From assembly GCA_011503125.2 (NCBI GenBank), contig WWBZ02000010.1, positions 372,001 through 436,000 of the forward strand: 64,000 nucleotides of DNA. Direction: 5' to 3'. The translations under genes were made by a program, and so were the position numbers. The stretch comes from Botryosphaeria dothidea (lineage: Eukaryota > Ascomycota > Dothideomycetes > Botryosphaeriales > Botryosphaeriaceae). The notes beneath the pieces were generated by a model that saw nothing but the letters and a program-made list of their open reading frames with translations, did not search any database and was not told where the DNA came from. The first letter of the stretch is position 1; the number at the start of each line of letters is the position of its first letter. Positions 10,675-36,565 of this stretch are shown piece by piece.

Positions 10675-10952
10675 CCCATAAGTTGGCCGTGTTTGTTTCC
10701 TGTTGGATTTTATAGTGAAGAGTTTTGAGGTCAGAAAAGAGAGTAGATTCAGCTTGTCTCCTGAGAGGGAAGTCGATAGGCATGCTTATATACAAAAAAA
10801 AAGTGTTTGAATAACCGAGGAGAACAGAAGCCGATGTTGATATCCGAAGCTTGTGAATATGAGGAGTAGTGAGGAGGTGGCAAAGAGTAGCTACTGATCT
10901 TGATGCTCGAAAGAATGTGATATCTGATATAGTAGGGCAAAATAGTCTGACA
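10675..10952 (-). repeat. LTR-type repeat, inverted first half and promoter part
   Basis: Read on the minus strand it begins TGTCAGACTATTTTGCCC at 10952 and matches 48116-48266 closely down to about 10802. It then continues with a TATATAAG box and a stretch (CTCTCAGGAGACA) that matches the repeat at 58910-59150. It looks like an LTR of a retrotransposon family with promoter. Its partner half is found at 11499-11805 in the opposite orientation. Confidence 0.55.
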
Positions 10953-11180
10953 TTTCCTTATTCTTTATCTAGTGTTAAGGGGAGGTTCTTAAACACTACT
11001 AAGTACGGCCAACTATTAATTCATTGTCTTATGCTTGCAAGTGATGCTAGCTATTAGAAAAGTCCTGATTCAGCTCGAAACACTGCGGAGCGTTCTGCCA
11101 TAACAACCGTCTCACCAGTTACGAACGCAGAAACGGTGCGAAATACACAGAATTCTCATTTCGCGATAACGCGACTGTCG

Positions 11181-11351
11181 ACAGCAATGATTGCCGGTCA
11201 TATAGCAATAATTACGAGCCTTGCCGCAACAGTTGCAGGTAACACGGTAGTTGCGGGTCGCGTGGCAACGGTTGTAAGCGAGATCACAACGGTTGCGAGT
11301 GTCACAGCAATCGTTGTAAGACACGCCACAACGGTTGTAGGTGGATTCAAC
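11181..11351. repeat. Degenerate 21-bp minisatellite
   Basis: About eight diverged units such as ACAACGGTTGTAAGCGAGATC follow each other with a 21-bp period. Both strands stay open and encode seven-residue repeats, which explains the long but meaningless open frame here. Confidence 0.65.
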
Positions 11352-11498
11352 AGTAATAGTTATGAGCACTTCTTGCTCTTTCCGCAGACAGCGATTCTAT
11401 TGTCTACCTTTTTAACATATCCACCTGTCACCACTAGCACGCCACCAACACCTCTCTGCCTCACTACGCTCCGACCACCGTCGTTTATCCAACGAATA

Positions 11499-11805
11499 TT
11501 GTCAACCAGAATCCCCTTATTTCTCAGGCAGCATTTGTCGTTCAGTTTATTAGTTACTACAATCTCTCGAAGATTCCACCGGAGAAGAGGAGGGCATCAA
11601 TTTGCCACAGTTCCTGCCCAATACCCTCGGATATCGCTTCCTCGGATACACTCATTTCCTCGGTTATATCAATTCAGATTCATGTACTTAACGACACTGA
11701 TTCTCCTTCACTAGGGAGGACAGGCAGAAGTATACAGTCAGAAATTCAATTCTTTCTTCTAACCTCACACAGTTTTGGGCCTGAAGCCCACCCACAGTTT
11801 GATAT
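11499..11805 (+). repeat. LTR-type repeat, second half
   Basis: Matches 48268-48572 in direct orientation, including AAGAGGAGGGCATCAATTTG and TCCTCGGATACACTC. It ends TTTGATA, where the 48-kb copy ends TTTGACA. The first half of the same unit lies inverted at 10802-10952. Confidence 0.6.
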
Positions 11806-12298
11806 TTTTTTTTCTGCAGTCATACGTTTTCTTGATTGAATTCGTGGAAAAACCGACTTCCTTCTCTGTAATGTCGTGCTTCTACTATTCTCAGCCTGTC
11901 TTATCACGATAAGAAATCCCATTCGAGAGCCATGCTTATCAAAGCGCTAAAAATCCCTTACAGTTCGAACAGGAGCTATAAATAACATGCGCTAAATAAA
12001 GGATCTATGTATCGATTACTACGTTATAAGCGGTGCGAAATAAGATAATATGGTAGGAATATATTCTGCGAGAGTTTAGCAGAGGAAGAGCTGATACTAT
12101 AATTCCTTAGAAGACTTTGAAGGCTAAACGATAGGTCTTTACGGGAGGGTAGTATAGTAAATATTACCAACCAGTGCGTAGAAATTCATAATGATGTAGC
12201 AAAGTTGCCTATACATCTTATAGAACTATAACAACTTGCAATCATGGAAGTATACCAGAGACCTCAACCGATTAGCATATCATTTATTCTATAGGTTT
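11806..12298. other. No gene recognised
   Basis: AT-rich intergenic DNA between an LTR fragment and the 3' end of the kinase-like gene. Confidence 0.4.
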
Positions 12299-13039
12299 TC
12301 ATGCATTCCATATCCTGTGCTCAAGATCTTCTATACTCTTGTAGGTCCCATACCAACACTTCTCGATGACTTCCTTGCATATTAAATGATCCGTGGTAGG
12401 GAGGTCTCTCTCAGTTGGCCAAGAACACCGTTCAAAGTAACTATAATCGAAAACCTTCCACGCTGAAATTGAGTATACGATACAGCCCATCCCCAGCAGG
12501 TCGAGTCGGAAAGTATCTTGGGTGTAGACTTCTTCCATACTAGCGTCTGGAGGATGAAGGACCACTTCCCCAAAATCGCCAAGCTTCAACGTACCGTTTT
12601 GAACCAGTAAATTTTCCGTCTTGATGTCCTGGGGTGAGACTTTCCGAGAATATGCGTGTGATAGAGCTGCCGACACGCTTCGAATCATTGCGGCGCGGTC
12701 GGATTCCGATGGCTTAGGATATGATCTAATATAGTCTGCGAGTTCGCCCTCGTTTGCGTACTCTAGCTTCAATGCTCCAGTCGCCATATCGTAGATGCCA
12801 AAGAATTTGATGATTCCTTCATGCCCCCCTAGGCGCTCAAATACGCTCCTCTCGTGATCGATGATCTGGCGGAAATTCTGATTATACTCGTCTTCTCCCA
12901 AGAAGAACTTTGGCTGCTTAACAACATGCTCGGAATCGATTTGGTAGATGTCCCCAGAGAACCCGCTGGCGATATATGCTCCTGGGCCTTGAACAACATA
13001 AGACCCAGCCGAGGAGGCGGAAGTTGAGGAAAGACTCAT
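12299..13039 (-). CDS. Small protein kinase-like protein
   Basis: A single-exon 246-residue protein from an ATG at 13039. It has a kinase fold in order: a degenerate glycine loop (ASGFSGDIY, about 24-32), the lysine in VVKQPK (K41), a hinge (LEYANEGELADYI), a catalytic loop VSPQDIKTENLL (D138, N143) and DFG (155-157). The HRD histidine is replaced (PQD), while the aspartate, lysine, asparagine and DFG remain, so activity is possible but not certain. It is at the short end for a kinase domain. No additional domains are seen. It stands alone between relics, with no obvious partner. Confidence 0.75.
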   Translation of the reverse strand: MSLSSTSASSAGSYVVQGPGAYIASGFSGDIYQIDSEHVVKQPKFFLGEDEYNQNFRQIIDHERSVFERLGGHEGIIKFFGIYDMATGALKLEYANEGELADYIRSYPKPSESDRAAMIRSVSAALSHAYSRKVSPQDIKTENLLVQNGTLKLGDFGEVVLHPPDASMEEVYTQDTFRLDLLGMGCIVYSISAWKVFDYSYFERCSWPTERDLPTTDHLICKEVIEKCWYGTYKSIEDLEHRIWNA

Positions 13040-13722
13040 TGTGCAAGGCAACAGGAATAATCAGAATCGAGGAATTCTCGGTTGGTCGCAAGCTGAAAGA
13101 CTGGAGACACGGAGGAGAAGTCCTAGGCAGTTTATTGTGAAGACTGCTTCCGCTTGATAGGTGTATTCGCAACAAGGCGCACGCCGGGTGCCTGGGGTCG
13201 CTGGAGCGTTTTGTCGAGGCTGGGGGCTGCCAAGACGCACGAAATATGCAGACTCATACGCGAGAAGGGATGCGATATCCGCGTTCGAGTGGCTGCTGTG
13301 GTATTTGCTGGGTGCGGGTCTTCATTGTCGTCTTTGCCCGACCAATAGCCGCGTCGCCCCCACGGGGGGCAGTTGGTGTAGACTGCGAAACTCTGTGGAT
13401 GTTGACAAAAGGAGGGAAGCGAGCCAAAGAGCCAGCTGTTAAAAAGTCAAGAACGGTTCCGCTGCGTCTTATCTTTGCAGAGCAGCTAGAAGACCGATGC
13501 AGATCGAATAGAAACCGTTCCGGCAGTGGGGTCGGCGCATAGTCAGGCCGCTACCTACCCCGCTTGCGCCGTTGCTGCGCGCTGCCAAGAACACGCCATC
13601 ACCCGGGCGGGGACGAGCGGAGATGTTTTCGTAGCACAGTGTTACGAATATATCCTTGTTTGTAGAGCTGGAGGAGACTGTATGCAGACAACTTCACCCT
13701 CAATAGTTCTCTTCCACCTCTT
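13040..13722. other. Intergenic region between two divergent genes
   Basis: Lies between the kinase-like gene (minus) and a plus-strand gene starting at 13723. It is the likely promoter region of both. Open frames here show no protein-like features. Confidence 0.4.
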
Positions 13723-16177
13723 ATGGCGGACATTCCATATCACCTCGACCAAGAGCATACTATTTGCCGCCTACGAGATGTTGCGCCTCGCTTCCTCTCG
13801 GGGACTCCAGTAAGTGATACAAACAAGGGGAAGCCAGGACGCTAAGTTGATGCATACCAGCGATTGGAAAATCTCTTGCAAGAATCGCTTCAACGATTCT
13901 TTTAGGAATTCACGCTCGAGGAGCTGGTGCGGTATATCCCCGTCTGGGTGCGAACTACCTTAGTTTCTCAGCAGCCGCTGGCCCAGCCATCGGACCATTC
14001 GCTCCCATCAGGCAGCTCCGAGGCTCCGCAGTCATTTGGTTCCTCAAACTCATCTACGAGTTCGACCCAGCCTGACGCTGCTCCTTGTCCACCCGCCGCC
14101 CTCGGCCCTCAGGCAACAAAAGGGGGCTTCCATTCCGGGCCGCAGGTACAAAGCAAGCGCCCTGCTCTTGATGACTCGTTACCCGCTTCTTCGGAAAGCA
14201 ACACAGTGCCAAAGAAACGCCGGAAAAGAAGACGCATAGAGGCAGATCAGGCGTTGGTCAACAAAGGCAAAGAATACCCTATCGGGAGCGAAGAACTTGA
14301 GAAGCTCTCGTCCAACTCCATGCTTATAAGCTATGAACGGCAAACCTCAAGTTTAGAGCACTCGATATATGAAGTAGTGTCTCAAGGAGCAGACCGTTCG
14401 GCTTTGGAAGCAGAGATGCCGTTGCAGAAGTGTGGCGAAATGTGGAAAAACAACGGGCAAAAAGTACAGGAGGCCAAGTGCGCGCGCCGTTTCTTAATGC
14501 TCTTCATCTCACATTTTGTAGAGCACTGCGAGAGTCTACCAGAGATCCCCAAGGACAAGCTCCGTGGTCGTTCAAAGCGCACTTACGCGTACGAGATCGC
14601 TTCGCGGGAGACCGGGGAGAAAGTCAAAGACCTTAGACTGATGGCTAGCTGGTCAAGAAAATATCTTGCTATCGCCACCGGCGCTGGCCTTAGTCGCTTC
14701 CTTGAGATAAGTTATGACAAGTCTTGGTTGTGGGTTTCTCTACCGCTTGAGGGTGCGAGAGCTAATGTGATAATTGCAGTTGGGAGAAGAAAATGAACGA
14801 GGCTGATATACATTTGGCATGCCGGAGCCTACGCGACCAACATGGCAAAATGACAGAGAAGGAAAAGAAGCTGAGGTCAAGCTTGGATTTTCAGACTGCC
14901 CAACACATCATGATCACTCTTGGAAGACTTGGGTTGGCAAAGGAGAAGCTGGTGGAGATGAATACTGGCTTGACCAAGGTCCTGGGAGAATTTTTGGACC
15001 TGGAGAGCATCCGCCATGGACAGATCAAGCAGAATAATCAGAATTTCTATCATAGGATCGAGAATCCCCGGAACGCGACCGGCGAGCATGTTGCGCAAGC
15101 CTCTAGCACCGATGAGCACAGTAAGGATACCAATCCGTCTTGGCAGGTTCTGTATCTTATTGGTCAAAGATTTGCCGACGAACGCAGAAGAATCCGATTG
15201 TACGTCCGTGCAGGGAAGCAACCGTGGTTCCAATCCCACGTCAAATGGTCTTCAGACGCCGCATCTCAATCGCAATTGTTCTTCCTCAGTGTCTATTCCA
15301 GGAGCACAAGGTTTACATCACTCACCAATGCAACAGAACGAAGGTATGACTGATTTTAACACCACAACGTTTTGGAGGGACACGTGTTTTTAAAAAGGCC
15401 AACTCCAACGTGTTATGACGCTTACTGGCAATAGACTCTGCCCACACTGCTGCCTTATCGGCGGACAACAACAACAACAACAACTCATCCACGCCCGACG
15501 AACTCCGTTTCAATCCTGCTACAAGAAGCCCGGGGAGGCTTATAGACAACGATTATATGCAAAGTGGCCATACTCTTGAGGACGAGGATGCAGGCTCTGA
15601 CTTCCATGGTCAGCACGATGCATTTCGGCGAGACATGGCTGCCGGCTGTACTCAAAATTGTGGTAAGTAATCCGTGCGCCATAGCTCAGAATCTAAATCC
15701 TAACGACGCCACGTAGCTACAGCAGATTCCTCCAGCCCACAAGTCCCAGCATATTCCCGTGACAACACAGAATCCAATACGCTTCCCGCCGACTATCATG
15801 ACTCTGACGCTGCTGTAGGCTCAGCGCTTCCAGCGCCTTATAGCGACCCTCTAATGATTCCCCCGCCGCGTGAGGAGCCCCAGCAACTCTACCGCCTACC
15901 TCCCCAGCGAAACGCCGTCGCCCACTGCAGCCCAAGCCTGCAAATACTGCTCCAATACCTCCCCGATCTCACGATCCCATTTGCTTCTGATGCTGAGAAA
16001 ATTCCAAGAGCCCGCCGTTCGTCGCCCCGGAGGCCCCCTCGCGGCCGCGTGGAGCATTCAGTCGACTTCTGTTTTGCCCTCCACCTCGAACATCATAGAG
16101 TTGGCTATGGCTTCACAGTCATCCTCCTCCCTAGGTGGATCGCCGACCAAATCGAAACGCTCCGCCAGCCCCGTTAA
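13723..16177 (+). CDS. Unknown nuclear-type protein, six-exon model
   Basis: Proposed model join(13723..13809,13906..14729,14780..15146,15214..15343,15435..15662,15717..16177), 698 residues. The sum is a multiple of three and each junction has GT-AG borders. The first intron (GTAAGT to TTTTAG) and the fifth (GTAAGT to GTAG) are strong; the third (GTTCTG donor) is the weakest. The protein has a short N-terminal segment, a Ser/Pro-rich region, a nuclear-localisation-like KKRRKRRR near residue 132, a helical middle, a low-complexity linker with six asparagines, and a Pro-rich end. I do not recognise the family. The last exon overlaps a nuclease-like fragment in another frame, so the 3' end may be wrong. 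A LINE fragment begins about 75 bp downstream. Confidence 0.5.
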
Positions 16178-16258
16178 GGGCATCGCTGACCTGATATTCG
16201 ACAAGGGCTTCAGAACCCTCACGCTATCGCAACTACAAGATGGCAAGCTTCTAGCCCT
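15920..16258 (+). pseudogene. Possible N-terminal part of a fungal PD-(D/E)XK-like protein, cut by a LINE
   Basis: In a different frame from the gene above, the segment around 16108-16250 encodes SSSSLGGSPTKSKRSASPVK followed by ADLIFDKGFRTLTLSQLQ. Fungal PD-(D/E)XK nuclease-like proteins often begin with a Ser-rich SPTK/SPVK segment followed by such a block; this is recalled from family knowledge, not checked. The frame runs straight into the LINE fragment at about 16252, so the nuclease domain itself is absent. It could instead be the true end of the upstream gene after a frame change. Confidence 0.3.
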
Positions 16259-16784
16259 GCCTGTCCATGTGGTTGGAAAAAGCAAACCCCAAAGCACATC
16301 CTTCTCTTCTGCCCCCACTTCCAACAGGGCAGAGCACAGATGCTTCAGAAGGCAGAAACCATGGATTACCACTCTCTTCTATCTACAGAGAAGGAAGCTA
16401 AAGCAGCAACATCCTGGTTTCTACGCTTAAGATTACTTAATCAGTTTAGCCTTGCCAAGGAGATGCGCCAGGAGGACCACCAGGAGGAGAGCAAGGAGGA
16501 GAGCCAGGAGGACCGCCAGGACTATGAGGAACTAGGATCCCGCGAGGAAGAGGATTGAGGGGGACAACAACAGCTGGCGAATGTAGGGCTGCTACAGCAG
16601 CCTCTACCGGTAAGCAGGAAAAACGGAGACAGTAGAGAAAACGCACCTGGGAAGAGAGGAGGGGGTTTTGCCTAGTAGAATGGGTTTTCCCCCTCGTGTA
16701 AAATAATTACAGATAGCCGCCCCACATGGACCCGAAAGGGAGCTAAATCGGGAGAAATGAACTTATCTATCTATCTATCTATCC
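16252..16784 (+). mobile_element. 5'-truncated Tad-like LINE copy
   Basis: Matches the last 500 or so bases of the full-length LINE at 29804-30311, including AACCCCAAAGCACATCCT, the CPCG-type cysteine region, the 3' UTR and a (TATC)n tail ending near 16784. 5' truncation and a short-repeat tail are typical of LINE insertion. It interrupts a coding-looking stretch. No clear target-site duplication could be read. Confidence 0.8.
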
Positions 16785-17435
16785 CTGATATGATAAGTTA
16801 TAGAAGTAGAGTGATGCGTAGGGCCGCCTAGAGGAGTAAATCGAGCGATTGTAGATGGAGGTTTTGCCTTACATCTAGCCTTTAAAGCATCGGCCGTAGG
16901 GTTGGCTTGCGGAAGCATGCGGCCCCTACTCTCGAAGAGGACATCAAGCACATGAGCATTAGATGTACGCTAAGCTGGTGCATTAATAATTATAGGGCGA
17001 AGCTTGCGAAAGCTAGGCTCGTCGGTAGGAAGTTGTCGAACGGTGCGAGAAAGAAGACGCCGCTGTCTTGTATATTAAGACTATCTAAGCTAACTATATA
17101 CTACGCGTTTGAAAGAACACGGTGGCTCTTTCATTAACCTTGACTATAGTAAGACGGGGAGCAAAGGGGTAGTGTCGAGGCTAGTGTAGTTTTGTTGAAC
17201 TAAAGATGAAGCACGTGATTGGGGACACGTGTGGTTGACAGAAGTTGTAGAGCTTTAATAACGTTCTTCTCGTTGTAAACCTGCTTTTCGCCGAAGCTCG
17301 CAACGATAGCGGAGTACACAATAGCTATTATAAGTAACTATTTGGCCATCTTGAGGTCTGCTCGTTCAGTGAATCGCGCCTAAACTTGGATGCTATGGCC
17401 AGGGCGGGGGGAAAGGACGGCTTTTTTTTGGATAG
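16785..17435. other. No gene recognised
   Basis: Region downstream of the LINE fragment and of the AAA_28 gene. No protein-like frame. Confidence 0.4.
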
Positions 17436-18086
17436 TTATGTACATTTCAGTCTTAAAGAAAGAACCTCCCTCACAAACGCCACCCTCTCTCTCAAGTCAA
17501 CTATGTCTCCTCGAAGAACCGTAAAATCGATCGAATGCTTAGTCAAATCCCTGCGAAACTCTTCATTCAAAGCCTTCCACTGACTTTTATCTTGATACGT
17601 CATCCTCACCTCGTCACCAGTTAGCCACTCCTCGCTACCTGCCTCGCACAAGATAACGATCGAGTTTCTCATCCTTTCTATGAGAAACTTGCATTCATGC
17701 AAGCCTAACATTTTATCCGCTACCCAGTTCCCGAGATAGACGCGTGCGTACACCATCGGATCGAGCCCCGACCTGTCAGAAATGTACCATCGATCATCAA
17801 GATCTCTTTCGGCATTGTACTGGGCTTTGAGAACGCGATTCTGAAGCTGGCATCCCCTATCGAGTTCCCCAATGTCTGCCGAATGGAATCCTTCATCGCG
17901 CATAACATCCCGGACGACTTCCTGAACCAATGAGGGCCGTGGAAAGAAGCGACCATGATGATTTCGGTTCCCCGGATCTTCAAAGTGGTCCCGTAGCGCC
18001 TGAAGAAGAGTTGTTTTCCCTGTGCATTGTGCACCGATAAGATAAATGTTGGTAGGCTTTTGGGAAATTTCCTGGGCCATAGCCAT
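17436..18086 (-). CDS. AAA_28 / NadR-Ttd14-like P-loop ATPase or kinase
   Basis: A single-exon 216-residue protein from the ATG at 18086 (MAMAQEIS). Walker A is GAQCTGKT (18-25), directly after the first strand YLI. A DRSGLDPMVYARVYLG segment in the middle matches the phosphoacceptor-side block of NadR/Ttd14-type proteins, and a later strand VILCEAG precedes a helical C-terminus. AAA_28 covers nearly the whole protein. Members include the N-terminal half of animal Ttd14, where it is fused to a CYTH domain; here the next gene upstream on the same strand (18582-19226) is a CYTH protein. Substrate unknown; NadR relatives phosphorylate nicotinamide riboside. Confidence 0.85.
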   Translation of the reverse strand: MAMAQEISQKPTNIYLIGAQCTGKTTLLQALRDHFEDPGNRNHHGRFFPRPSLVQEVVRDVMRDEGFHSADIGELDRGCQLQNRVLKAQYNAERDLDDRWYISDRSGLDPMVYARVYLGNWVADKMLGLHECKFLIERMRNSIVILCEAGSEEWLTGDEVRMTYQDKSQWKALNEEFRRDLTKHSIDFTVLRGDIVDLRERVAFVREVLSLRLKCT

Positions 18087-18581
18087 CGTGCCTCGGAATC
18101 CTCTTCGTGCCGTTGGATGTCGGTAGGTGTGGTAAAATGCTATTTAGGCAGTAACAGTGCTTAGTAAAGGCGTGGATTACTTAGAAAGTTCCTACGAACT
18201 TAATATTTATATGTGGAAGTATAGGTAGTAGCGTAGGCGAAGAAACAAACACCGAACAATCTACAGCAAACTAACCAGAACTGCTGACCTTAATAGACAT
18301 CTGCTTTACGACACACACTTCAAGAAGAGACAGCATATGACCAACTGAATTCCGATAAATTTGAAGTTTTCCTTAGACCACTATGTTCTTGATTGAGAAG
18401 CAAAAGGATGTCGATTAGATAGGTGCGGTAAGGTGCCTTAGGCTTATGTGGCCTCAGGCATTAGGCGCTGCAGGTGGTAGTAGGTGATAGTAAGAGGCGG
18501 CTGGTAGTAGTAGCGTCCATTAGTTCTGCTACTGCGCTATTGTGGAGTGAAAATTAACATACTAGGTTGTTCTGGGCCCTG
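18087..18581. other. Intergenic, with a diverged direct repeat
   Basis: Promoter region of the AAA_28 gene. The segment 18401-18450 (GCAAAAGGATG then GGTAAGGTGCCTTAG) resembles 21029-21075, on the other side of the CYTH and kinase genes. No gene is seen. Confidence 0.45.
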
Positions 18582-19226
18582 CTACGCCTTCCTAAATCGT
18601 TCGAAATAGGCTGTGAGTTTGCCCTTGGGAACACCAGGACAGAAAGCCCACGAGTAGTGGTCCATGAATCTAGTGATCATCTTATCCATCTCCTTCATCT
18701 TTGCTTCCTTCTGCTGAGCAACATCCAAACCTACTTTAGTGTGAAACTGTATAGAACGTTCCAACTCCACCTCTCCAACCGTATGACCGAAGTCAGTCGT
18801 ATCAAGCACGATCTTAAACTCTCCGTCCGCTAGCCAGCTGCGCCGCACAGTAGATAGGGTAGCCAAGATATCTAGACCAAAGTGGTCATCAGGCCCGTCG
18901 CTGATCTTCGCGCCCAGCAGCGCGCGTAAACGCCGTGAGATCTCCAGTAGGTCAGTCACCTCCTCGAACTTAGAGTTGTTGAAGTCGCCACCCAGTCTGA
19001 TTTTGGCCTGCCAATTACCGTCGCGCTCCCGTAGCCAGACACCGTTTGACGAGAGCATGTTTGACTTATCGTCGTAGTACACGTCCGTGAAAGCCTGAGG
19101 GCGAAACGCCGTTAAGGTTCGAAAGTGTGGGCTTCCGCCGTCTAGTGTCAAGTTCTTGGCCGTAAGGTTGACGAATTTTCGCTCGACTTCAAGGTTGGCT
19201 ATGCGAAAGACGGAGGAGGCCGACAT
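18582..19226 (-). CDS. CYTH-domain triphosphatase (thiamine-triphosphatase-like)
   Basis: I start at the ATG at 19226 (MSASSVFRIA), giving 214 residues; a longer open frame upstream only reads through a minisatellite. The protein opens with the CYTH signature EVERKF (ExExK: E13, E15, K17) and continues with the beta-rich tunnel pattern: TDVYYDD, WLRERDG, WQAKIRLGG, FKIVLDTTDFG and GEVELERS. The length fits eukaryotic ThTPases. CYTH enzymes hydrolyse triphosphates (ThTP, inorganic triphosphate, RNA 5'-triphosphate) with metal bound by the ExExK acidic residues. It lies between an AAA_28 gene and an NMP kinase gene, all on the minus strand, next to viperin. The real substrate could be ThTP or another nucleotide triphosphate. 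Confidence 0.88.
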   Translation of the reverse strand: MSASSVFRIANLEVERKFVNLTAKNLTLDGGSPHFRTLTAFRPQAFTDVYYDDKSNMLSSNGVWLRERDGNWQAKIRLGGDFNNSKFEEVTDLLEISRRLRALLGAKISDGPDDHFGLDILATLSTVRRSWLADGEFKIVLDTTDFGHTVGEVELERSIQFHTKVGLDVAQQKEAKMKEMDKMITRFMDHYSWAFCPGVPKGKLTAYFERFRKA

Positions 19227-19337
19227 CGTTCTACCACAACTGTTAGCGTCAGCACTAAATCGCGCGAGAATACAGCAGCCATACCACTGTCTTTTTATGT
19301 TGTCCAAGGTCAATGGAGATGGGTATGGAGAGTATAG

Positions 19338-19423
19338 GTTGAAGGATTGAAGGGTTGAAGGATTGAAGGGTTGAAGGATTGAAGGGTTGAAGGATTGAAG
19401 GGTTGAAGGATGAAGGGCTGAAG
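19338..19423. repeat. 8-bp/16-bp minisatellite upstream of the CYTH gene
   Basis: Alternating TTGAAGGA and TTGAAGGG units, about ten copies, almost perfect. It lies about 110-200 bp upstream of the CYTH start codon, so it could be in its promoter or leader. Confidence 0.85.
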
Positions 19424-19819
19424 GTGTAAGACGCGGCGAAGCGATCAATACCTACGTCTTCGGAACCACGCTAAACTAAAAGTAGACGATCACGTGGGGC
19501 AGCGCGTAGTACTCTCCAGTGCCCTCCAGTGACCTCACCAAAGGTTTTTAATTCCATAGAACTCTAATGTCACGGTGTATGTTCTTTAAGCTAGCTGCAG
19601 GCGGCGGCACCCCGATCGACCCGGCTGGTCGCCGCCGCCGGCCATGCGAAGCGGGAAGAGTTGCCGCACATCGCAAGCAGGAGTACACTCCTCACCTGGA
19701 CGACGGACTTTTTCTTAAGGAGCCAGCATATTAAATGTTCTAAGAAAAGAGTTTCAATTTGTCTACTCACGCGCTCGCGAACTCTAGGAGACTTGAGCAT
19801 TCAGTCTAGAAGATTGACC

Positions 19820-20585
19820 TCACCACCGTCCCCCAGAACCGTGCCAACTCTTCATAATATCCCGCACACTTTCGTAAGAAATCTCAGTCTCTCCCCTCGT
19901 GTCGACCTGTACGCCATCAGACTCAAGTTACACGACGGTCGATTATAGGTACTTACCTTAACCAATATCTTCTTCGACTCGTAGAATTCAACAATCTCCG
20001 GATTTAGTTCCATAAACTCGGTATATCTCCTGTCGAACAGACCACCATCATTGTCGCGACCAGCAATGTTTCTGGTAATAAATCTATGTTTTGCAACCTC
20101 TTCTGGGCAATCGAAGAACAGTACCAGGGCCGGTTCTTTAAACTAGATGATAGTGTGAGCAAAGAGGAAAAAGATTTAGCGGTTTAGGTTAGATAATAAA
20201 AGACTTACTAAAGCTTCAAAGGCTTTAGCTTGATCCAGTCTCCTCGGGAATCCGTCTAGCATGATTTTCCACACGCCCTCTTGCTTTAGGTCTTCAAAGA
20301 CCTTACTCATAATTGAATTCAACTCCTCAATCGGTAAGAGCTTGCTGTCTCGTACACGATTGATGACGTTCTGATCTACTTCCGGAGGATTGCTATTCGT
20401 GACTCGTCTTAGCACGTCACCAATCGAGAGGTGGTGGTAGTTGCAATCGTAGGCTAGTCGCTTGCACAGTGTTCCCTTACCGGAGCCTGGAGCTCCTATT
20501 CTCTGTTAATTTTGTTGAGAGTGTAAGAGCTATTATACACACCTATGACATAGATGAAGGACATGCTGGGTTCTTCTTCAGCCAT
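19820..20585 (-). CDS. UMP-CMP-kinase-type nucleoside monophosphate kinase
   Basis: Four exons: complement(join(19820..19906,19957..20142,20209..20495,20543..20585)), exactly 200 codons plus stop. Introns are GTGTGT...ATAG, GTAAGT...CTAG and GTAAGT...ACAG. The P-loop GAPGSGKGT (15-23) is rebuilt across intron 1. Further blocks are SIGDVLRRV (NMP-binding), the family signature LDGFPRR, a strand LVLFFDCPEE, and a short lid GRDNDGGLFDRRY followed by YESKK. The short lid and length fit UMP-CMP/AK1-type kinases rather than long-lid adenylate kinases. Reaction: transfer of phosphate from ATP to an NMP, here probably CMP or UMP. It is divergent from the viperin gene with about 1.26 kb between the two start codons, recalling vertebrate RSAD2-CMPK2. 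AK1-type kinases can also make ThTP, so a link to the CYTH gene is possible. Confidence 0.88.
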
Positions 20586-21214
20586 AACTGTGCGGAACAA
20601 GATGGTAATTCGAACTATGTGGACTGCGAAAAAGGCTTGTAAATTATGCACAGGGTAGTGATTAGTAGATGCATAATCTATTAAACGAGTGCCTGCAAGC
20701 TTAATATATACACGAAAGGAGCACCTGTGTGACATGCATGAAAACAGAATAAGCAAGCCCCTATCTCCCATCACAAGCTACGGCAATCAGCTCTGATTAC
20801 TACCCTTTATGCTCTTAGCATGCTCTATTAGTTTGCAAGCTGTGTGACCAAACTCGTTATAGAAGTAGAAGCTCATGCTAATGTTAGACCGAACAGTAAT
20901 TACTGAACAGCGCGAGAAAGAATGGACGCTGCTGGCCCTCTAGATTGATGCTATCTGTCCTTAATATATAGTGAGATACGAGGGGGCACGTGTGAGTTTG
21001 GAGGGGCCGCATAAAATAAAAGTGATGGAGAGGCAAAAGGATTTTAATTAATTAGGCGCGGCAAGGTGCCTTAGTATGCCAAATACTAGTCTAACCTAAT
21101 CAGGCTAAGGCTGCTGCAAGCAGCAGTAGGCGACGCCTACCTGCGGTAGCGTTTGTTAAAAAGATTAGGGAATAATCGCTTAGAGATACAGGGTGCTAAG
21201 ACAGAAACGTGGTG
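20586..21214. other. Promoter region between NMP kinase and viperin, part 1
   Basis: No gene. Contains the second copy of a diverged direct repeat (21029-21075) and leads into a solo LTR at 21215. Confidence 0.45.
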
Positions 21215-21518
21215 TGTCACGGCTCAAGGAGAATCAAGTTCAATCCATGAATTTAACTAAGTTTCTAAGCCAAAAAAGAAAAGAAGCAGAGAAGACAGAG
21301 GAAAAGGAAAGAAAGTTTATAAGATAGCCGAGGGGGTTCGCTCCTAGCGTCCCTGCCTATCGTCGTTGCCTAGCGTCGTTGCCTAGCGTCGTTGCCTAGT
21401 AAGTGAATGCTCCTACCCGGTGACCTCATCCCGTCACCTTAACAATAAGATTCGCTGTCCACTAGTCTAGTGCCACCCAGAGCCTTATTATTTATTGGTT
21501 TAAGGTTAGATCGTGACA
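21215..21518 (+). repeat. Solo LTR, TGTCACG family
   Basis: Starts TGTCACGG and ends TCGTGACA, so it has TG...CA ends with an inverted repeat. GGTG flanks both sides. Its first part (AATCAAGTTCAA, AAGTTTCTAAGC, A/G-rich stretch) matches the LTRs at 36286 and 52772. It contains a short run of GTCGTTGCCTAGC repeats near 21362-21400. It sits in the intergenic space between the NMP kinase and viperin genes. Confidence 0.7.
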
Positions 21519-21774
21519 GGTGTTGATCAAAAAGCAAAGAAAGCACGTGGCCTTGGGTAGTGGTGGTTGATAGCAATAGATTGAACAGTTGTTGGCTAGC
21601 AATAGTAAAGAAGGGGGAAGGATCATTGTCCTACACGGGAGACCGGGAGAGGCGGAACTAACACGTAACCCTGTACAACTCTCCGGTATCAGATGAACAG
21701 GCTCCTTGTCCGGAAGAGGCAGCATGCATATATGACTTCGTACAACTCCATTGTAACAAATTGATAGCTTACCA

Positions 21775-21848
21775 CCTTATATATGTGGGCCCCACCATGG
21801 GAGTTATCCTTACTTTCAAAGAGAGAATCTTCTTGAATCGAGATCACC
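21775..21848 (+). promoter_or_regulatory. Viperin core promoter and leader
   Basis: A TATA-like TTATATATG lies at about 21776-21784, roughly 70 bp before the viperin ATG, so transcription could begin near 21805-21815. An upstream ATG at 21797 in a strong context (CCACCATGG) starts an out-of-frame reading frame overlapping the viperin start. It would repress viperin only if transcription starts upstream of it. Confidence 0.4.
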
Positions 21849-22802
21849 ATGGTTCTTTTATTGCTTTTACTAGTCCCTATTATATTAGGACTCTTCTACA
21901 AATCCAAGCTTCATCGCCGTAAGCGCCCCATATCGGTCAATTACCATTTCACCCGGCAATGCAACAAGACTTGTGGATTCTGCTTCCATACCGCGACGAC
22001 GTCATACATAGAAGACCCAGAACGCGCGAAACAGGGTCTACGTCTACTCAAGGCTGCCGGCATGCGGAAGGTGAATTTTGCCGGCGGTGAGCCTTTCCTG
22101 TATCACAAGTTCCTTTCGCAAATGCTCCAGTTCTGTAAAGAAGAGCTATGTCTGGAGTCTGTCTCGATTGTCACCAACGGGAGCCTGGTCACGAGAAACT
22201 TTCTTGCGCGGCATGGGCAGTATATCGACATCCTGGCTGTGTCCTGTGACTCATTTAACGAGGCGACCAACATCAAGATTGGCCGAGGCTCTGGCAACCA
22301 GATACCGCAGCTCTACCGGATTGCCGCGTGGTGCAAGGAGCATGGCATCAAATTCAAGCTTAACACGGTGGTGTGTAAGCTCAATTTCCGCGAAGACATG
22401 AACCGGCACGTCGAAGATCTGGAGCCGTGTCGGTGGAAGTGCTTCCAAGTCCTCTGCGTCCCAGGAGAGAACGAGTCGGAGGAGAGGCTTCGAGACGTAC
22501 GGCGCTTTCTGATCACGGAGGACGAGTATCGACATTTTTGCCGGAGGCACGAGCACCAACCCTCGTTCATCCCTGAATCGAATGCTCTTATGGCCAAGTC
22601 GTATCTCATCCTAGATGAGTATATGAGGTTTCTGGATCGAGACGGCCGTCAGCCCTCCGCCTCCATTTTAGAAGTGGGCGTTGAGAAGGCACTTACCAGT
22701 GTTTACTGGGATGAGGAAAGCTTTAGGGATAGGGGAGGGGTCTATGACTGGGGTAGAGAGCAGGAGCCATGTTCCAAAATGGATTCTAAGCTTAAGTGGT
22801 GA
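21849..22802 (+). CDS. RSAD2: Viperin-like radical SAM enzyme (ddhNTP synthase)
   Basis: A single-exon 317-residue protein with ATG in a CACCATGG context. Residues 1-17 are a hydrophobic helix (membrane anchor), followed by a basic KSKLHRRKR stretch. The radical SAM CX3CX2C motif is CNKTCGFC (C38, C42, C45). Viperin-specific blocks follow: the GGEPFL SAM-binding loop (79-84), SIVTNGSL, AVSCDSFNE, KLNTVVCKLN, RWKCFQVLCVPGEN, ESNALMAKSYLILDEYMRFL, and a C-terminal SKLKW ending in Trp. In animals the C-terminal Trp is needed for iron-sulfur loading through the CIA machinery. Viperins convert CTP to ddhCTP, a viral-polymerase chain terminator; fungal viperins are known and some accept UTP. Length is close to the family, with a shorter N-terminus. 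It is divergent from a nucleotide kinase, CYTH and AAA_28 cluster. No frame damage is seen. Confidence 0.95.
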   Translation: MVLLLLLLVPIILGLFYKSKLHRRKRPISVNYHFTRQCNKTCGFCFHTATTSYIEDPERAKQGLRLLKAAGMRKVNFAGGEPFLYHKFLSQMLQFCKEELCLESVSIVTNGSLVTRNFLARHGQYIDILAVSCDSFNEATNIKIGRGSGNQIPQLYRIAAWCKEHGIKFKLNTVVCKLNFREDMNRHVEDLEPCRWKCFQVLCVPGENESEERLRDVRRFLITEDEYRHFCRRHEHQPSFIPESNALMAKSYLILDEYMRFLDRDGRQPSASILEVGVEKALTSVYWDEESFRDRGGVYDWGREQEPCSKMDSKLKW

Positions 22803-23133
22803 GAGTTGCGTATCATTTCTACAGGAACAAGAACTTCTTGATTAGCTCTTTTTCGAAGATATGTTGTGTGTATGGAGGGTTGATAAATGTTGAACATTAC
22901 TGGTACTACGTCTCTAATGGGTTATTGTTTGTTTCTTGGTACACGCATTAATTCAACTACTATTATCCGGTTTTGTGTTTCTTATTTGACCTTCGTTCAC
23001 AAAATGTCACAGAATTGCCTCCCTTTATGCGCTTTACATCCGTTTTGACGAGTCTTTTATGAAGCGTGCTATATAGTCTTAGTAGATAGCAAACAATTCC
23101 AGAAGTAGTGTTGTCTGCCCTTCTCACACATTT
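22803..23133. other. 3' flank of viperin
   Basis: AT-rich sequence after the stop codon, presumably the 3' UTR and terminator of viperin. It is followed at once by a solo LTR. Confidence 0.4.
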
Positions 23134-23289
23134 TGTTGGGAGGAACAGGGTCTGATTGAACCAAGGGTCAACACCGAGAATTTGTTATATAGCTACTATA
23201 TAAGAGGGACCGGGTCACCTACCCTCCTCCTTCTCATGCCAATCTACGTTGAACTTCACTCCCTATACAAACAACCCAGTCATCCAACA
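23134..23289 (+). repeat. Solo LTR, TGTTGGA family, copy 1
   Basis: Starts TGTTGGGAGG and ends CATCCAACA. A 5-bp duplication CATTT lies directly on both sides. It contains TATATAAG and a CTCATGCCAATC block shared with the copy at 34424. Length 156 bp. Confidence 0.8.
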
Positions 23290-24530
23290 CATTTTAACAA
23301 GATAGTGCTCGAGATTACCGCTAGGCTGATCATGAGCGGGACGACTACTAACCTATGGAAACGAGCTCGTTATAGTTCATGAACTCCACTACGCAGACTA
23401 GAAGGTACGCCTACTTAGTAAATCCTGGCTTGCTAAACGCACTCGTACTTATGAAGAAGGTTCGAGGAATGTTAGGCCGCAGCGGCACGAGTTCACTCTT
23501 CCCGTTGGAGGAAAATTTCCAAGAGCGCAAGCTACAGCATTTACTGAAGTAGCCCCCCCGCCAGTAAATTAACTATGAAGCTGTAAATGGATACTACGTT
23601 TCGAGAAACCCTCAACATTATGCGATGCTACGCTAACTAGCCGGCAAGGCCGGCAGTTACATCACGCCCTCGGAATCCTTCTCGTCAGCTCGTCAGCAGC
23701 GCCAAAACACGCTTGCTAGCCACTAGCCAGCTACGGGAATCCGATCGACCGCTTCATTGACGGAAGCACCTCCGGTGCGTTTTAAGGACACCTAAGGTGA
23801 TGCGCTATGTTATGGAGAAGTTCCAGATGTGCTTCCTTCTCTCGATGAAGGTGACGAGAGCAGAGATGCTACCTTAGTTTCAGGATGCACGAGGACGGCG
23901 GCGGCAGGGCATGGGGCCTAGGGCGTAGGCGCGAGCGCGCGCTAAGCCGGAAACTTACTGGACTCGTCGTAATTAGGGCGTAACGCATCCTTGTCCCTTG
24001 TCGTGCCTTGGCTATACCTTACGCACGCGCCTAGACGGGATGCCCCGTTAAAAATTTCGCGGACCCTGCGGCGACTGCCTGGAAGCGCGCACGCAACGTC
24101 TCTCAGCCACCGCTCACCGCAAGTCGCGTCCTTCCGCTGTAGTACAAGCATGCTATAGCGAGAAACGCAGCTGCAGGTCGATAACTAAACCTAGCCTGCA
24201 TAATTCATTGGACCAAAATTAATTGGCGCACATGATGCGGGCGCTTTTGCTCGTTGATACAATGTTGCACAGCCTAATGCAGGCGCACCGCTAAGGAAGC
24301 GAAAATCCTGTAAAGCAAAACGCTTGCTGTCAATAACTGAGGCGCGCGTGGCTGGCTCTCCCGGCGTACGTACTGTTTCACCACTCGTCAGCTTCCTGCT
24401 GCCTAGTAACACGTCCGCAGCCCGTACCTATCCGATGTGGCTACGCGGTGGCTGGGAGCGGAAGAGATGTTCTCGCCCTTTGATTTTCTTTCCGTCAAGC
24501 CTTGATTGCCGTTTGTCAAACCTTGATATT
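23290..24530. other. No gene recognised
   Basis: Mixed AT-rich and GC-rich DNA (GCGCGCGC near 23935). No frame on either strand looks like a gene. Confidence 0.4.
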
Positions 24531-24633
24531 TGATGGAAAATGAGCTCAATCACCTCCGTTATCTGTTATTGGATAGCATATTAGCTTAGTCATTCATTCA
24601 TCGATTCCGACCGATCAAGCGCAAATTCCATCA
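24531..24633 (-). repeat. 103-bp MITE-like element, copy 2
   Basis: Reverse complement of copy 1 at 9089-9191 with about four differences and the same exact length. Its right edge coincides with the point where the copia reading frame is cut off at about 24634. Confidence 0.6.
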
Positions 24634-25151
24634 GGAGTGTTGATTGCAGCTGAGAACGCGTTGTAGAAAGTCGATTTCGGTTGTTCTTGAGCTTGAGTAA
24701 GCGTTGCAGTATATGCTTCTTTTCGTGGTTTTCGAGGTTTCCTAAAGGATCATTGCTGTAGTTTGGATTCTGATTCCGAGAACTCCGTGAGCTGTTCTCT
24801 GGAATGATAGTTTCTTCAGTAAATGTGGCTGAGATATCTGCTCCTCGTGGTGCTCTGTTGCCGGGAGCAGCGCTTGGTTGTGGTGGAGTATCATATTGGG
24901 CAGGCAGTAGAGGACCAAGTCGTTGCTCAGATTGCTCTTGTTCTTGTTCTTGGGAGTCAATGGTATCTCCTGATGGTTTAACTGACTGAGAAGGTGTTGG
25001 GAGTTGTTGAGTAGATGAGTCCTTTTCGGCTTGAGATTGTTGGTTTGTTATCTGATTGAGTTAATTAAGAGAGGATTTAGGTTCTTCCTAAGGCATGATA
25101 CCATAGATTAATGGTAGAGTAGGAGTATTGAGAGTCTTAATTATCTCCTTT

Positions 25152-25166: not shown

Positions 25167-28100
25167 GGGAAAACATGACCACGCCAAAAAATCGACCCCA
25201 AGCTACGGCGCCGGGAGAGGGCCCCAGGGACTTTCCTAGGCTCAGCGAGCCCCAAAACACCAATCAAAGCAGCCGCAGCCGCGTTGTGGTTGATGTAGAG
25301 GACATAGGAGAAGGCGAACAGCCCTCCCCAATGACTACCTCTACCCAGCCACAACACACTCCCAAGAAACCGCAGAGCACCCAGTATAGCGTAGAATACG
25401 TTGAGAGAGCTTTAAAAACAGCAGACACCCTCCTCGAAGCCCTACAAGCATCCGCCAGCCTCCCTTCAGTCCTCTCCAGCCAGGTGAAAAATTTTCTCGA
25501 TATTGCCAAGACAATCTTCTAGGATCATATTACTATCTGCCAGGAGGCAACCACCAAGGAGCCAGGCCTGAAGGACATCCTCAAAGAGGTCCAACAGGTC
25601 CAAAAGACAGTCAACCGTATCCAAGCTACGTCTACGCCTACACCCAACACTCGCAGCTGGGCACAAATTGCAGCCTAAGTAGTCCCGAAGCCCCCTACCC
25701 CCCCAGCCACCACTGAACTCACCCTCTACCTCCCAGAGACAGCAAACAGACAAGAAGTAGCTAAGCTCTCTAATGAGGCAATCATCAGAAAGATCCAAGC
25801 AGGGAAAAGCTGGGCGTGTAAAAAAGTACTAGCCGTCAAGAAGCTCCCCAGTGGAGATGTTAGGATCTTTATACCGGATGAAACAACTCGAACAGCCCTT
25901 CTCCAGGACCAGGAATGGACTGCAGGACTGGGGAAAGAAGTCAGGCCCAACCAGCAGCTGTACTCAGTGCTAGTACACAACGTCCCCCGAGAAGGATTTA
26001 ATACCGCAGACCCCCAAGCCATCCAAACTATCCAGGAGCAGAACCTATCCCTACACCCAGGATTACGTATTAGCAAGCTGGCCTGGCTAAAGAGGAAGCT
26101 CCCAGAGGGGAAAACTCACTCGGCCATCATCCTTAGCACCACAAACCCCGAAACTGCCAACTAGATCATTGATAAGGGGCTTGTTATTAACTTTGCTATA
26201 CATATAGCGCAGTACTATAACGCAGCCTTCACAGTAACCCAGTGTTTCAAGTGCCAGGCCTACGGCCATATTACTAACCATTGTAAAAAAGAAGAAAAGT
26301 GTGGACAGTGCAGCGAGGCACACAATACCAGGGACTGCCCTAAGGAAAGCACGCAGTGCGCAAACTGCTCTCAAAGGCACACAGCCTGGAGCAACTCCTG
26401 CCCAACACGCAGAGCCTACCAGGCTAAGGCCACCCAGGCCCGCCTAGCAGCACCAGAAAGGCATCGGGAAGGACCCCTGATAACCAAGACACAGCCCCAA
26501 ACTAACTGGTTGACCGTTGGACCAAGGAAGAGGATCAGGGAGGAGGAGCCGGTCAAGAGGGGACCAGGCAGGCCAAGAGACTTGAGCCGCCCCCCTCCTC
26601 CAAACCAAATGCGGTTTACCGGACTTAGTAGCTCACAACACGCTTCAGAGGAGCCAATAGGAACCCCCCCCCCCCGCCTCACAACCCACACCACCAAACC
26701 CCTCGCAGCCCGATTCAGAGATGGAAGGAAGTCAATGTTAGATACAGACTCCCTCTCCATCGTGCAGTATAACGTTCATAAGAGCAAGGATAGGGTGATG
26801 CTCCCGTTCTTCAAAGAGGTGGACCCGAGGGTCCACTACATCCTAGCTATCCAGGAGCCCTGGAGGAACCTAAGGATCAAGACAACAGCAAGACACCCCG
26901 CCTACCATACAGTTTTCCCTCAGGAGGGAGTGGCAAGAACCTGCTTCTTTATAAGCAAGGCCATTGCCCCCAACTCCTGGCAAGCAACAGTCCATTCACC
27001 AGATCTCATTACACTATCCCTTATTACCAGGACACATACAATCCATATCCATAACTACTATAACCCCCCACCAGCCTCCCATACTAGCACGGCTCTAGAA
27101 ACCTTATCCCTTCTCCCAGAAGCTCTTAGAAAACCAGGGGAGCACATCCTCCTAGGAGACTTTAACCTCCACCACCCTATCTGGGGAGGTATAACCTCCC
27201 CAATACACCACACACTTGCAGATAACCTTATCGAAATAGCTACTACAGCCAGCCTTAACCTAGCTCTCCCAAGAGGTACTATTACGAGGAGAGAGGGTAG
27301 TAGCGAGAGCACCCTAGACCTTATTTTTACTACACAGAGGCTAGAGGAGAGGATCCTTAGCTGCGGAGTTAGCCAGGAGCTCGAATCCTCCTCCGACCAC
27401 CTACCTATCCTCACTACGCTTGATATCTCCCCTACCCCTGCAGAACCACGCCCTCCAAGGCCCCAGTGGAAAAAAGCAGACTGGAATAGAACCAATCAGG
27501 TGCTCCAAATAAAGCTCGAACACCTTAGAGCAGCCCCTCTTAATACCAAAGTAGACCTGGACCACTTTACGGAACTACTCCAGGAGGTTATCCAAAGGAC
27601 AATCCAGGAAACCATCCCAGTGGCGAGACCCTCGCCCTGGGCCTCCATACAATGGACAAAGGAGTGTTCGGACCTAGTGCTCCAGGCGAGAGCAGCTAGA
27701 AGGAAATGGACGGCTAAAGGGAGGGAGGAGGACTAGGTGGCATACCAAACCATTGCTAACAGTAAGAAGAGGCAGATCAGAAGGGATAGAACAAAAGCAT
27801 GGCGCAGAACAGTAGCTGAGATTACCTCAGACCCATCTGCACTCTGGAAGCTCTCAAAGTGGGCAAGAACAAGGGCACTAGAACCTCCAGCCCCACCTCA
27901 GTTCCTACCCCTCCAGGGAGCAGATGGACAACTACGCTACGACAACCAGTCCAAGGCAGAAATCCTTACCAACCAGTTTTTCCCCCCTCCCAGGGCCACC
28001 GACCTCTCAGATCTGGATGGGTGTACATACCCAGTGCCAGTAGGGATTCCCCAAGACCTTACTGAAGAGCAGGTCCTCCACACCATCCAGAAGCTTCCCC

Positions 28101-30311
28101 CAGATAAGGCACCAGGCCCAGATAAGATCATTAATAGGTTCCTAAAGCAGTGCGCTCAGACACTGAGCGGACCACTCACTAGGCTCTTCCAGGGATGCCT
28201 CGCACTTACATACCATCCTAGGCAGTTCAAAAGCTCAATTACCGTAGTCCTAAGGAAACCACAGAGGGATAACTATACTAAAGCCAAATCATTTAGGCCG
28301 ATTGCCCTACTCAATACGCTAGGGAAGCTACTTAAGAGGATTATAGCAGATAGAATCTCCTAGGCTACTGAAGCATACGACCTGCTCCCTAATATATAGA
28401 TGGGAGCTAGAGAAATAGGTCCGCAGTAGCAGCTCTCGACCTGCTCACAGAACAGATCCATACTGTCTGGGCATAAGATCCAGGGCTAGTGGCTTCAGTC
28501 CTTAGCCTGGATATCTCAGGAGCATATGACCACGTATCTCATAGAAGGCTTCTCTACAATATAAGGATGGCAAGACTCCCGGAATGGGTAGAAAGATTCA
28601 CTCAATCCTTTCTGCAGGACCGTACCACTCAGCTATCCTTCGGAGACTTTACTAGCCCACTAATCCAGACCTTAACCGGGATTCCCCAGGGATCCTCGCT
28701 ATCTCCGATCCTCTACCTATTCTTTGCCTCTAACCTACTTACGCAGCTACGCAGGGGTAATACCTTCCCCCTTAGATTCGTCGATGATACTAATATTCTA
28801 ACCTTTAGTAGATCTACAGAACAAAACTATAGGGCACTAGAGGGCGCATATCAAATTTGCGAGCGCTGGGCAGCTACCCACGGGTCAGCTTTCTCGCCCG
28901 ACAAGTATTACCTTATTTATTTTATAAGAAAACTAAGGAGATTTAATATGGTAGTAGAGATCCGTATCCCTGGATTTGCTGGATGCCCAGAGCCTATAAT
29001 TAAGATTCTAGGAGTCCACGTAGACAACAAGCTCAGATGGGGACCCCATATTAGGGAAATAGGAGCCAAGGCAATGAAATAGTGCACATCTCTCTCTAGA
29101 CTCGCAGCATCCACCTAGGGAGCTTCATTCACTAAAGCCCGCCATATCTATATGGCTGTGGTGAGACCAGTCATGACCTATGGCTGTGGGGTATGGCATG
29201 TCCCAGAGGGAACCCCAGGGTGGAGAAAGACAGCCACCCAGCCACTGCAGAAGATCCAAAACCAGTGCCTACGCACCATCTCAGGGGCATACAAGTCAAC
29301 CAGCACACAAACTTTAGAGCACGAGACGGGGATTTCCCTACTCTCACTCTACCTGGACGAACTGGCGCTGGCCCAGACTATTAGATCTAGGGATGGTCCA
29401 GTGGCAATAGTGGTAGAGGACACTTGCCAGAGCATCAAAGAGATAGCCCGGGCCACACTAGGCGCCAGAGGCACAGCCGGCCCAGCCAGAAGAGCTCTGC
29501 TTAGAGAAAGGGCAACAACCCTCCTTAACTACTGCCCCCCCCCCCCACCTACCAGAGTCTCCCGGAGCGAACGAGACTACGTATGGCATACAGGAATAAG
29601 TGGAAGAAGAGATGGACAAAGTTTACTAGCGAAGGAAGGCAAGATAAGCCAGTAGCCCAAAGCACACAGTGGAACCCGAAAGTCAGACAAATCCACAGTG
29701 AACTATCCAAGCCACAGAGCACACTCGCTACCCTACTGCGTACAGAGCATATTAGACTAGAGGACTTCCTCTCCAGACGTAAGGTGCCAGGGCACCCTAG
29801 CCCTGCCTGCCCATGCGGCTGGCATAGACAAACCCCAAAGCACATCCTCCTCTTCTGCCCCCACTTCCAACAGGGTAGGGCATAGATGCTCCAAAGGGCA
29901 GGGACCACGGACTACGATTCCCTCCTCTCAACGAAGAAGGGGATCAAAGCAGCAATAGACTGGTTCTTACGCCTAGGGCTGCTCAAGCAATTCAGCCTGG
30001 CAAGGGAACTAATCCAGGAGGATAACCAGGAAGAGGAACCAGGAGGACCACCAGGACCACCAGGACCCGGACAACTACGAGGATAAGGACTGAAGGGATA
30101 GGTCTAGTAGGTGAATGTGGGGCTGCCACAGCAGCCGCTACTGGTAAGAAGAAAAAACAAGAACTAGTATAGGATAGCATGCCCAGAGAGAGAGGAGGGG
30201 TTTTTGCCAGGCGAAAGGGTTTTCCCCCTCGTGTAAAATAACTATAGATAGCCAGCCCCGCATGGACCCGTAAGGGAGCTATATCGGGAAGAAATGAATT
30301 TATCTATCTAT
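25167..30311 (+). mobile_element. Full-length Tad-like LINE
   Basis: 5145 bp between perfect 15-bp duplications, with a (TATC)n 3' tail. Contents in order: coiled-coil/gag region, CCHC knuckles, AP-like endonuclease, reverse transcriptase with FVDD, a C-terminal cysteine motif and a 3' UTR. I see no RNase H domain. The 3' end is repeated at 16252-16784. Poly-C runs lie at about 26666 and 29536. Confidence 0.92.
25175..30083 (+). pseudogene. LINE gag-endonuclease-reverse transcriptase, interrupted
   Basis: The frame opens at ATG 25175. Zinc knuckles CFKCQAYGHITNHC, CGQCSEAHNTRDC and CANCSQRHTAWSNSC lie at 26249-26402. The endonuclease begins near 26755 (SIVQYNVHKSKDR) with LLGDFNLHHPIWGG and SSDHLPIL. 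RT carries APGPDKI, FRPIALLNT, LDISGAYDHV, GIPQGSSLSP and FVDDTNIL. The end has CPCGWHRQTPKHILLFCPHF. Stops at 25520, 25676, 26162, 27734 and 28361 and later ones mostly fit CAG/CAA-to-TAG/TAA or TGG-to-TAG. The frame shifts between 28361 and 28489 and again near the poly-C run at 29536. Knuckles and endonuclease lie in one continuous frame with no stop between them. Confidence 0.85.
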
Positions 30312-30326
30312 CTAAGGGTTTTACCG
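30312..30326. repeat. 15-bp LINE target-site duplication, right
   Basis: CTAAGGGTTTTACCG, identical to 25152-25166 and directly after the TATC tail. Confidence 0.9.
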
Positions 30327-32180: not shown

Positions 32181-32482
32181 CAGCGTATAAGGCGATATTC
32201 CTTTACCCTACACCCACTACACCTTCCTCTCTTTTTCTCTTTAGCTTAGGAACTTCGTTCTTTTATACCCACTTCGAATTCAGTTCAGTGATGGTCGTGA
32301 CATGGGCGAGATAAATCAAGCGTGCTTGCAAGGGTTCATTTCTATTTACGTAGACCGAAGAGGTCCCATCTAAGATTATCCCAAACTAGGCTAATTTACG
32401 CTTTGCGTTTGCCTGGTGTCGCAGCCTTTTGAAAACAGCGCGGGAGTCGTTTCTTGAAAATTGTCGGATGTGATAGACGCCC
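32181..32482. other. No gene recognised
   Basis: Between the copia right end and the next gene. Could hold a decayed copia LTR but no border is visible. Confidence 0.35.
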
Positions 32483-34423: not shown

Positions 34424-34571
34424 TGTTGGAATTCACGTGTTTTGCAAATTGTTTTTGCAACACCAGATAGCTTAGTCACTCACTTACGTATATAAGGAGG
34501 GTGGGCCACCTATGCCCTTCCTCCTCATGCCAATCATCAATGGATCATCGTTATTCATCAACAATCCAACA
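34424..34571 (+). repeat. Solo LTR, TGTTGGA family, copy 2
   Basis: Starts TGTTGGAATT and ends AATCCAACA, flanked on both sides by CTTTC. Contains TATATAAGG and the CTCATGCCAATC block found in the copy at 23134. Length 148 bp. Confidence 0.85.
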
Positions 34572-36147: not shown

Positions 36148-36285
36148 CAGTTAGGCGCCGCAATAGCGTTATAAAAGTATGAGAATGCGATCGTATATAT
36201 GAGGTTCATTCCTGTTCTCCGCTTGATAGCAGAGTGCTCGCTTGTGCCCATTGCGTTCTTCGAAAGCCACGCAGACTCTGTCGAG

Positions 36286-36525: not shown

Positions 36526-36565
36526 TCGAGATCCCGCAACCTCTCAAGTTATGTCATGGTCCTAA

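Follow-up and report, generated by a model that had tools for sequence, protein, structure and literature searches.

The subject of this analysis is a 64,000-nucleotide stretch of the 51.7-Mb genome of the ascomycete Botryosphaeria dothidea (contig WWBZ02000010.1, here C6, positions 372001-436000; henceforth the window, in whose coordinates features are given unless a contig is named), in which a gene for a viperin-like radical SAM enzyme stands beside three other genes. The viperin gene is a single exon on the plus strand (21849..22802; 317 residues), recognized by Pfam and NCBIfam profiles and by its CX3CX2C motif. Three genes lie divergently from it on the minus strand, coding for an ADK-family nucleoside monophosphate (NMP) kinase of 200 residues (19820..20585; four exons, recognized by Pfam ADK and guided by homologues), a CYTH triphosphate tunnel enzyme of the thiamine-triphosphatase type (18582..19226; 214 residues) and a NadR/Ttd14-type AAA_28 P-loop kinase-like protein (17436..18086; 216 residues). 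Between the start codons of the kinase and viperin lie 1264 bases (intergenic region 20586..21848). The initial annotation had described four intact frames, three of them on one strand and divergent from viperin, and both points hold: all four frames are open and identified by profiles, with viperin alone on the plus strand.

The viperin-like protein presents its iron-sulphur cluster motif as CNKTCGFC, the cysteines C38, C42 and C45 being invariant in all 15 aligned sequences, and it matches Pfam Radical_SAM with an E-value of 2.9e-17. It passes NCBIfam NF038283 (viperin_w_prok; 246.1 bits, cut-off 180) and is matched by the kinase-bearing, kinase-free and kinase-fused PADLOC pVip models alike; against TIGR04278, 'antiviral radical SAM protein viperin', it scores 367.3 bits over residues 21-304, below the cut-off of 450. 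The N-terminus, judged by eye, is hydrophobic. Among the best 120 of its 2127 database matches, the best named relative is from Neofusicoccum ribis (85% identity), and among the closest solved chains is 6b4c, which is tabulated in one study as the viperin of Trichoderma virens (PMC8124187).

The kinase gene consists of exons at 20585-20543, 20495-20209, 20142-19957 and 19906-19820, separated by GT-AG introns of 47, 66 and 50 nucleotides, the fourth exon having been placed by comparison with the N. ribis homologue. A broken gene was considered and rejected, as the stops seen in a six-frame reading all fall within introns. A 172-residue version without exon 4 matches Pfam ADK with 86.3 bits (E = 3.1e-24; cut-off 26.8).

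The CYTH protein matches Pfam PF01928 (5e-12); its frame is open to 19451, and homologues favour the Met at 19226 as its start. Of the ExExK signature, E13 and E15 are conserved in 43 of 44 aligned sequences, while K17, R66, R68, K75, E89, R128, D142, E152, E154 and K203 are conserved in all 44; some of these tunnel residues we take to be the catalytic ones. Among triphosphate tunnel enzymes, the thiamine triphosphatases are its closest relatives in both fold and sequence. Genome-wide, the window copy is the one CYTH gene over the cut-off, and a search with the protein itself adds only a mutated duplicate. The database assigns a relative 50% identical to it (P0212) to a basidiomycete, Amanita phalloides. 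Directly upstream of the CYTH start, 5.6 copies of a 16-base unit form a tandem array (19337-19424).

The AAA_28 protein scores 85.4 bits against Pfam PF13521 (E = 6.7e-24; cut-off 27), and it too is the one gene of its family over the cut-off in the genome (29 of 51 candidates scored), a search with the protein itself again adding only a mutated duplicate. A single-sequence search of the PDB returned no match for it; a profile search gave NadR as the best hit, with an E-value of 0.004 over only 28 positions.

The initial annotation had proposed to look for these neighbours beside other fungal viperins. We compared the best 120 of 2127 viperins with 133 entries of the partner families (102 CYTH, 31 AAA_28), drawn from 120 of 227 proteins plus 20 more, with about 8000 candidates scored, so that the linkage counts are lower bounds; one row, P0139, has no recorded contig size and was left out. 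At least 21 viperin-CYTH pairs outside this species lie on contigs of exactly equal length, and in the 15 of these that carry an organism name it is identical on both sides; among named taxa present in both lists, 15 of 17 match. When the CYTH contig sizes were shifted by 1 to 100 either way, the mean number of matches was 0.285 and the maximum 2, by which a coincidence of equal sizes is rejected. Ten of the 21 contigs are shorter than 60 kb, the shortest being 4359 bp; those of Glonium stellatum and Periconia macrospinosa measure 8440 and 8288 bp. Proximity can be seen from gene numbers in three species: in N. ribis and Emydomyces testavorans, fused kinase-CYTH models (P0121, P0125) are numbered next to viperin, and in A. 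melleus a single locus number separates CYTH (000382) from viperin (000384). A taxonomic look-up places N. ribis, G. stellatum and L. rhizophorae in Dothideomycetes, E. testavorans in Eurotiomycetes and Trichoderma chlorosporum in Sordariomycetes; the classes of the remainder, as we presume them, would place the matches mostly in Dothideomycetes and Eurotiomycetes. Further, when this species is counted in, there are 22 same-contig pairs, over which viperin and CYTH distances correlate with r = 0.83 (none of 5000 permutations as high), which is what joint inheritance predicts. Recurrence of CYTH is thus borne out by the 21 pairs, and that of the kinase in a smaller sample comprising the merged models of N. 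ribis and E. testavorans and two further kinases of this genome, described below.

The AAA_28 part of the proposed recurrence fared less well. A viperin model of the dothideomycete Alternaria panax (P0023) has an AAA_28 tail, 38% identical to the window protein over 81 residues and missing the P-loop; the simplest reading would be that gene prediction joined two neighbouring genes. A contig size of 1913 bp is common to one CYTH and one AAA_28 entry from other species, a weak signal against a control mean of 0.17. None of the other 30 AAA_28 entries matches a listed viperin contig, few of their named taxa being in the viperin list. These data weakly support AAA_28 as at most an occasional member of the cluster.

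The genome has four viperin loci, viz., the window (type A), a second type A copy at C6:1018586-1019533, and two type B loci, B1 (C6:719714) and B2 (C12:1804353); three of the four lie on the single 1.05-Mb contig C6. Independently of the type A duplication described below, B1 and B2 each have a divergent ADK-family kinase, 28-30% identical to that of the window, and within the 20 kb compared the two loci are alike (80-86% DNA identity) only across the kinase-viperin pair. The B1 viperin frame is open; that of B2 has one premature stop and a replacement of the third cluster cysteine, with its kinase frame open. ADK-family matches in the genome amount to seven loci: three away from viperin, and those of type A, its duplicate mutated by repeat-induced point mutation (RIP), B1 and B2. 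About 0.9 kb past the B1 viperin (L018 3-917, plus strand) lies a gene for a PNP_UDP_1 phosphorylase-superfamily protein (L018 1791-2921, minus strand), and B2 has no matching flank. At the site of the type A NYH, the B1 viperin reads NYF; its loop after FLD is also longer, by two residues. The PDB chains 9dfn and 9dfu likewise differ at the NYF/NYH position, and therefore the type A and type B viperins may differ in nucleotide choice.

These pairings have partial counterparts in known systems. RSAD2 and CMPK2 are neighbouring genes in vertebrates, and CMPK2 is an enzyme of the thymidylate kinase family; we know of no CYTH or AAA_28 partner for this pair. The fungal partner kinase, unlike CMPK2, belongs to the ADK family and has no Thymidylate_kin match at an E-value of 0.01. 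In vertebrates viperin works with a nucleotide kinase, as in the fungal cluster, and a CMPK2-like kinase adjoins 15% of bacterial viperin genes, according to one account (PMC11249213). The prokaryotic pVip systems, with viperin adjacent or fused to a kinase, likewise resemble the fungal pairing. A prokaryote scan with the fungal viperin alignment reduced 48 pattern stretches to three loci, and viperin passed the cut-off in four of 398 genomes of one phylum; of the 27 pattern stretches in viral contigs scanned for viperin, none is a relative. In a motif screen of frames of at least 90 residues, made without a profile scan, a P-loop frame, judged by eye to be a kinase, stands directly beside viperin at one of six prokaryotic loci (L046) and a CYTH-like frame at none of the six; the one ExExK frame, of 112 residues and 2.3 kb from the viperin of L047, resembles a DNA-binding protein by eye.

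The closest animal counterpart of the CYTH enzyme in fold and sequence is the thiamine triphosphatase THTPA (24-33% identity in structure alignments), the fungal enzyme being distinguished by its link to viperin. The plant protein TTM1 (7z67) unites kinase and CYTH domains in one chain, like the merged models P0121 and P0125 and unlike the window, where kinase and CYTH are separate genes with a stop between them; to our knowledge, TTM1 has no link to viperin. Among known fungal viperins are those of T. virens, the source of 6b4c, and Thielavia terrestris, and the accessible portion of the study on them mentions no gene cluster (PMC8124187). In the main text of an article on eukaryotic viperins, the words 'kinase' and 'CMPK2' are absent (PMC10732462). 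In the literature searched, from which subscription journals were largely missing, there was no link of viperin to CYTH, thiamine triphosphatase or a triphosphate tunnel, no CYTH-AAA_28 domain pairing, nothing on TvVip1 and, among the titles and abstract openings listed, no fungal viperin gene cluster. The pairing of viperin with a kinase is already known, and what appears to be new, against the literature searched, is the ADK-family kinase and the CYTH partner in fungi.

In animals and bacteria, viperin produces nucleotides that block viruses. Its presence beside a kinase and CYTH, here and in other fungi, hints at an antiviral nucleotide pathway in fungi, some components of which are unexpected. 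We consider it probable that viperin, the ADK-family kinase and CYTH form a core that recurs in several Pezizomycotina, with AAA_28 as an occasional addition, and that it runs an antiviral cycle of 3'-deoxy-3',4'-didehydro nucleoside triphosphates (ddhNTPs). Uridine triphosphate (UTP) is termed in one study (PMC8124187) a putative substrate of fungal viperin, identified by biochemical means. In such a cycle, viperin would convert UTP and/or cytidine triphosphate to chain-terminating ddhNTPs, the kinase would return NMP, and ddhNMP coming back, towards the triphosphate, and CYTH would cut ddhNTP or competing triphosphates, thereby limiting self-poisoning or setting the product. AAA_28, where present, might phosphorylate nucleosides. 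The set would then constitute a local cycle for making, recharging and discharging an antiviral nucleotide. More tentatively, one might see in many Pezizomycotina a dedicated pathway in which the thiamine-triphosphatase-like CYTH has become a ddhNTP triphosphatase, acting as an off-switch or product-setting step, and a URA6-like kinase has been recruited independently of the CMPK2 of animals and bacteria; we know of no other viperin with such a step.

Several observations weigh against this antiviral cycle. The kinase, called UMP-CMP-type in the initial annotation, resembles that type but stays below the family cut-off: its 172-residue version scores 99.9 bits against TIGR01359, whose cut-off is 207.6. 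Linkage was deduced from equal longest-contig sizes and from locus numbers in protein database entries, and the offset control addresses coincidence of size, not unlinked genes that share a large contig. Eleven of the 21 contigs exceed 100 kb, and on these only the gene numbers of E. testavorans and A. melleus show proximity; the one named sordariomycete match, T. chlorosporum, is on a contig of 435 kb with closeness not shown. Two of the 17 named taxa disagree in contig size, namely Phaeosphaeriaceae sp. PMI808 (872438 versus 322220) and A. alliaceus (374160 versus 490277). At B1, viperin and kinase occur with no CYTH within 10 kb, and CYTH is therefore dispensable for a viperin locus. Finally, the CYTH protein resembles thiamine triphosphatases down to a Trp, present in 41 of 44 sequences, that directly precedes the two Arg and for which we assume a role in thiamine triphosphatase, and plain hydrolysis of thiamine triphosphate by CYTH is possible.

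In an unlikely alternative, CYTH is a housekeeping thiamine triphosphatase, the kinase a spare nucleotide kinase, and their linkage to viperin an inherited gene order without joint function. It would fit both the thiamine triphosphatases as nearest folds and sequences and the finding of a single CYTH gene in the genome, but it sits poorly with the repetition of viperin-CYTH linkage in distant fungi and with the pairing of kinase and viperin at separate loci without common flanks, while the three ADK-family loci away from viperin could serve the housekeeping need. Mere chance grouping within a repeat-rich, recently duplicated region appears very improbable. The block does belong to an inverted duplication of recent origin, there are retroelement pieces close by, and the AAA_28 linkage is as thin as described above; however, the 21 viperin-CYTH matches far exceed the control mean, and kinase-CYTH models adjoin viperin in two other genera, which makes chance difficult to maintain as regards the trio of viperin, kinase and CYTH, though conceivable for AAA_28.

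A different function for the same genes is a further alternative to which we give a low probability: the cluster might yield a natural product of ddh-nucleoside or ddh-nucleotide type, such as a secreted antimetabolite, with viperin making ddhNTP, CYTH and host phosphatases stripping the phosphates and the kinases providing self-resistance or salvage. Adjacent viperin, triphosphatase and kinases would suit a biosynthetic cluster too, and ddh-cytidine is detectable in human serum during viral infection, according to one report (PMC8801973). On the other side, no extra long frame lies among the four genes (17.4-22.8 kb), though the profile scans covered these genes' own frames only, and transporters, regulators or tailoring enzymes were not looked for in the wider flanks.

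Should the antiviral cycle hold, its CYTH component would be of particular interest: the chain terminators made by viperin may hit host polymerases too, and a conserved triphosphatase neighbour is a candidate off-switch. The comparison with CMPK2 also suggests that viperin partner kinases were taken from at least two kinase families. Discussion of antiviral immunity in fungi centres mostly on RNA interference, and the viperin cluster points to a nucleotide-based arm beside it.

The four genes lie within an inverted segmental duplication (window 10798..25118, resuming at 32302-37917; counterpart C6:998602-1030577). Window 10798-24599 matches the second copy at 88%, with more pieces up to 37917, the end of the compared stretch. 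The second copy keeps remains of all four genes, its viperin having 16 stops; since the block moved whole, it gives no evidence of linkage. Between window 12775-22785 and the second copy there are 1311 transitions and four transversions, and at 1306 of the transitions a C/G of the window faces a T/A of the copy; 1142 of these lie at CpA. This is the signature of RIP, which struck one copy of a recent duplication and destroyed the second. RIP on the window copy was rejected, as only five of the 1311 transitions run in that direction. That the original is untouched next to a copy killed by RIP might be explained if it was contributed by a mating partner. Window 26094-30314 is retroelement-like by eye, with an endonuclease-like frame at 26510-27736, and is present beside the second copy too.

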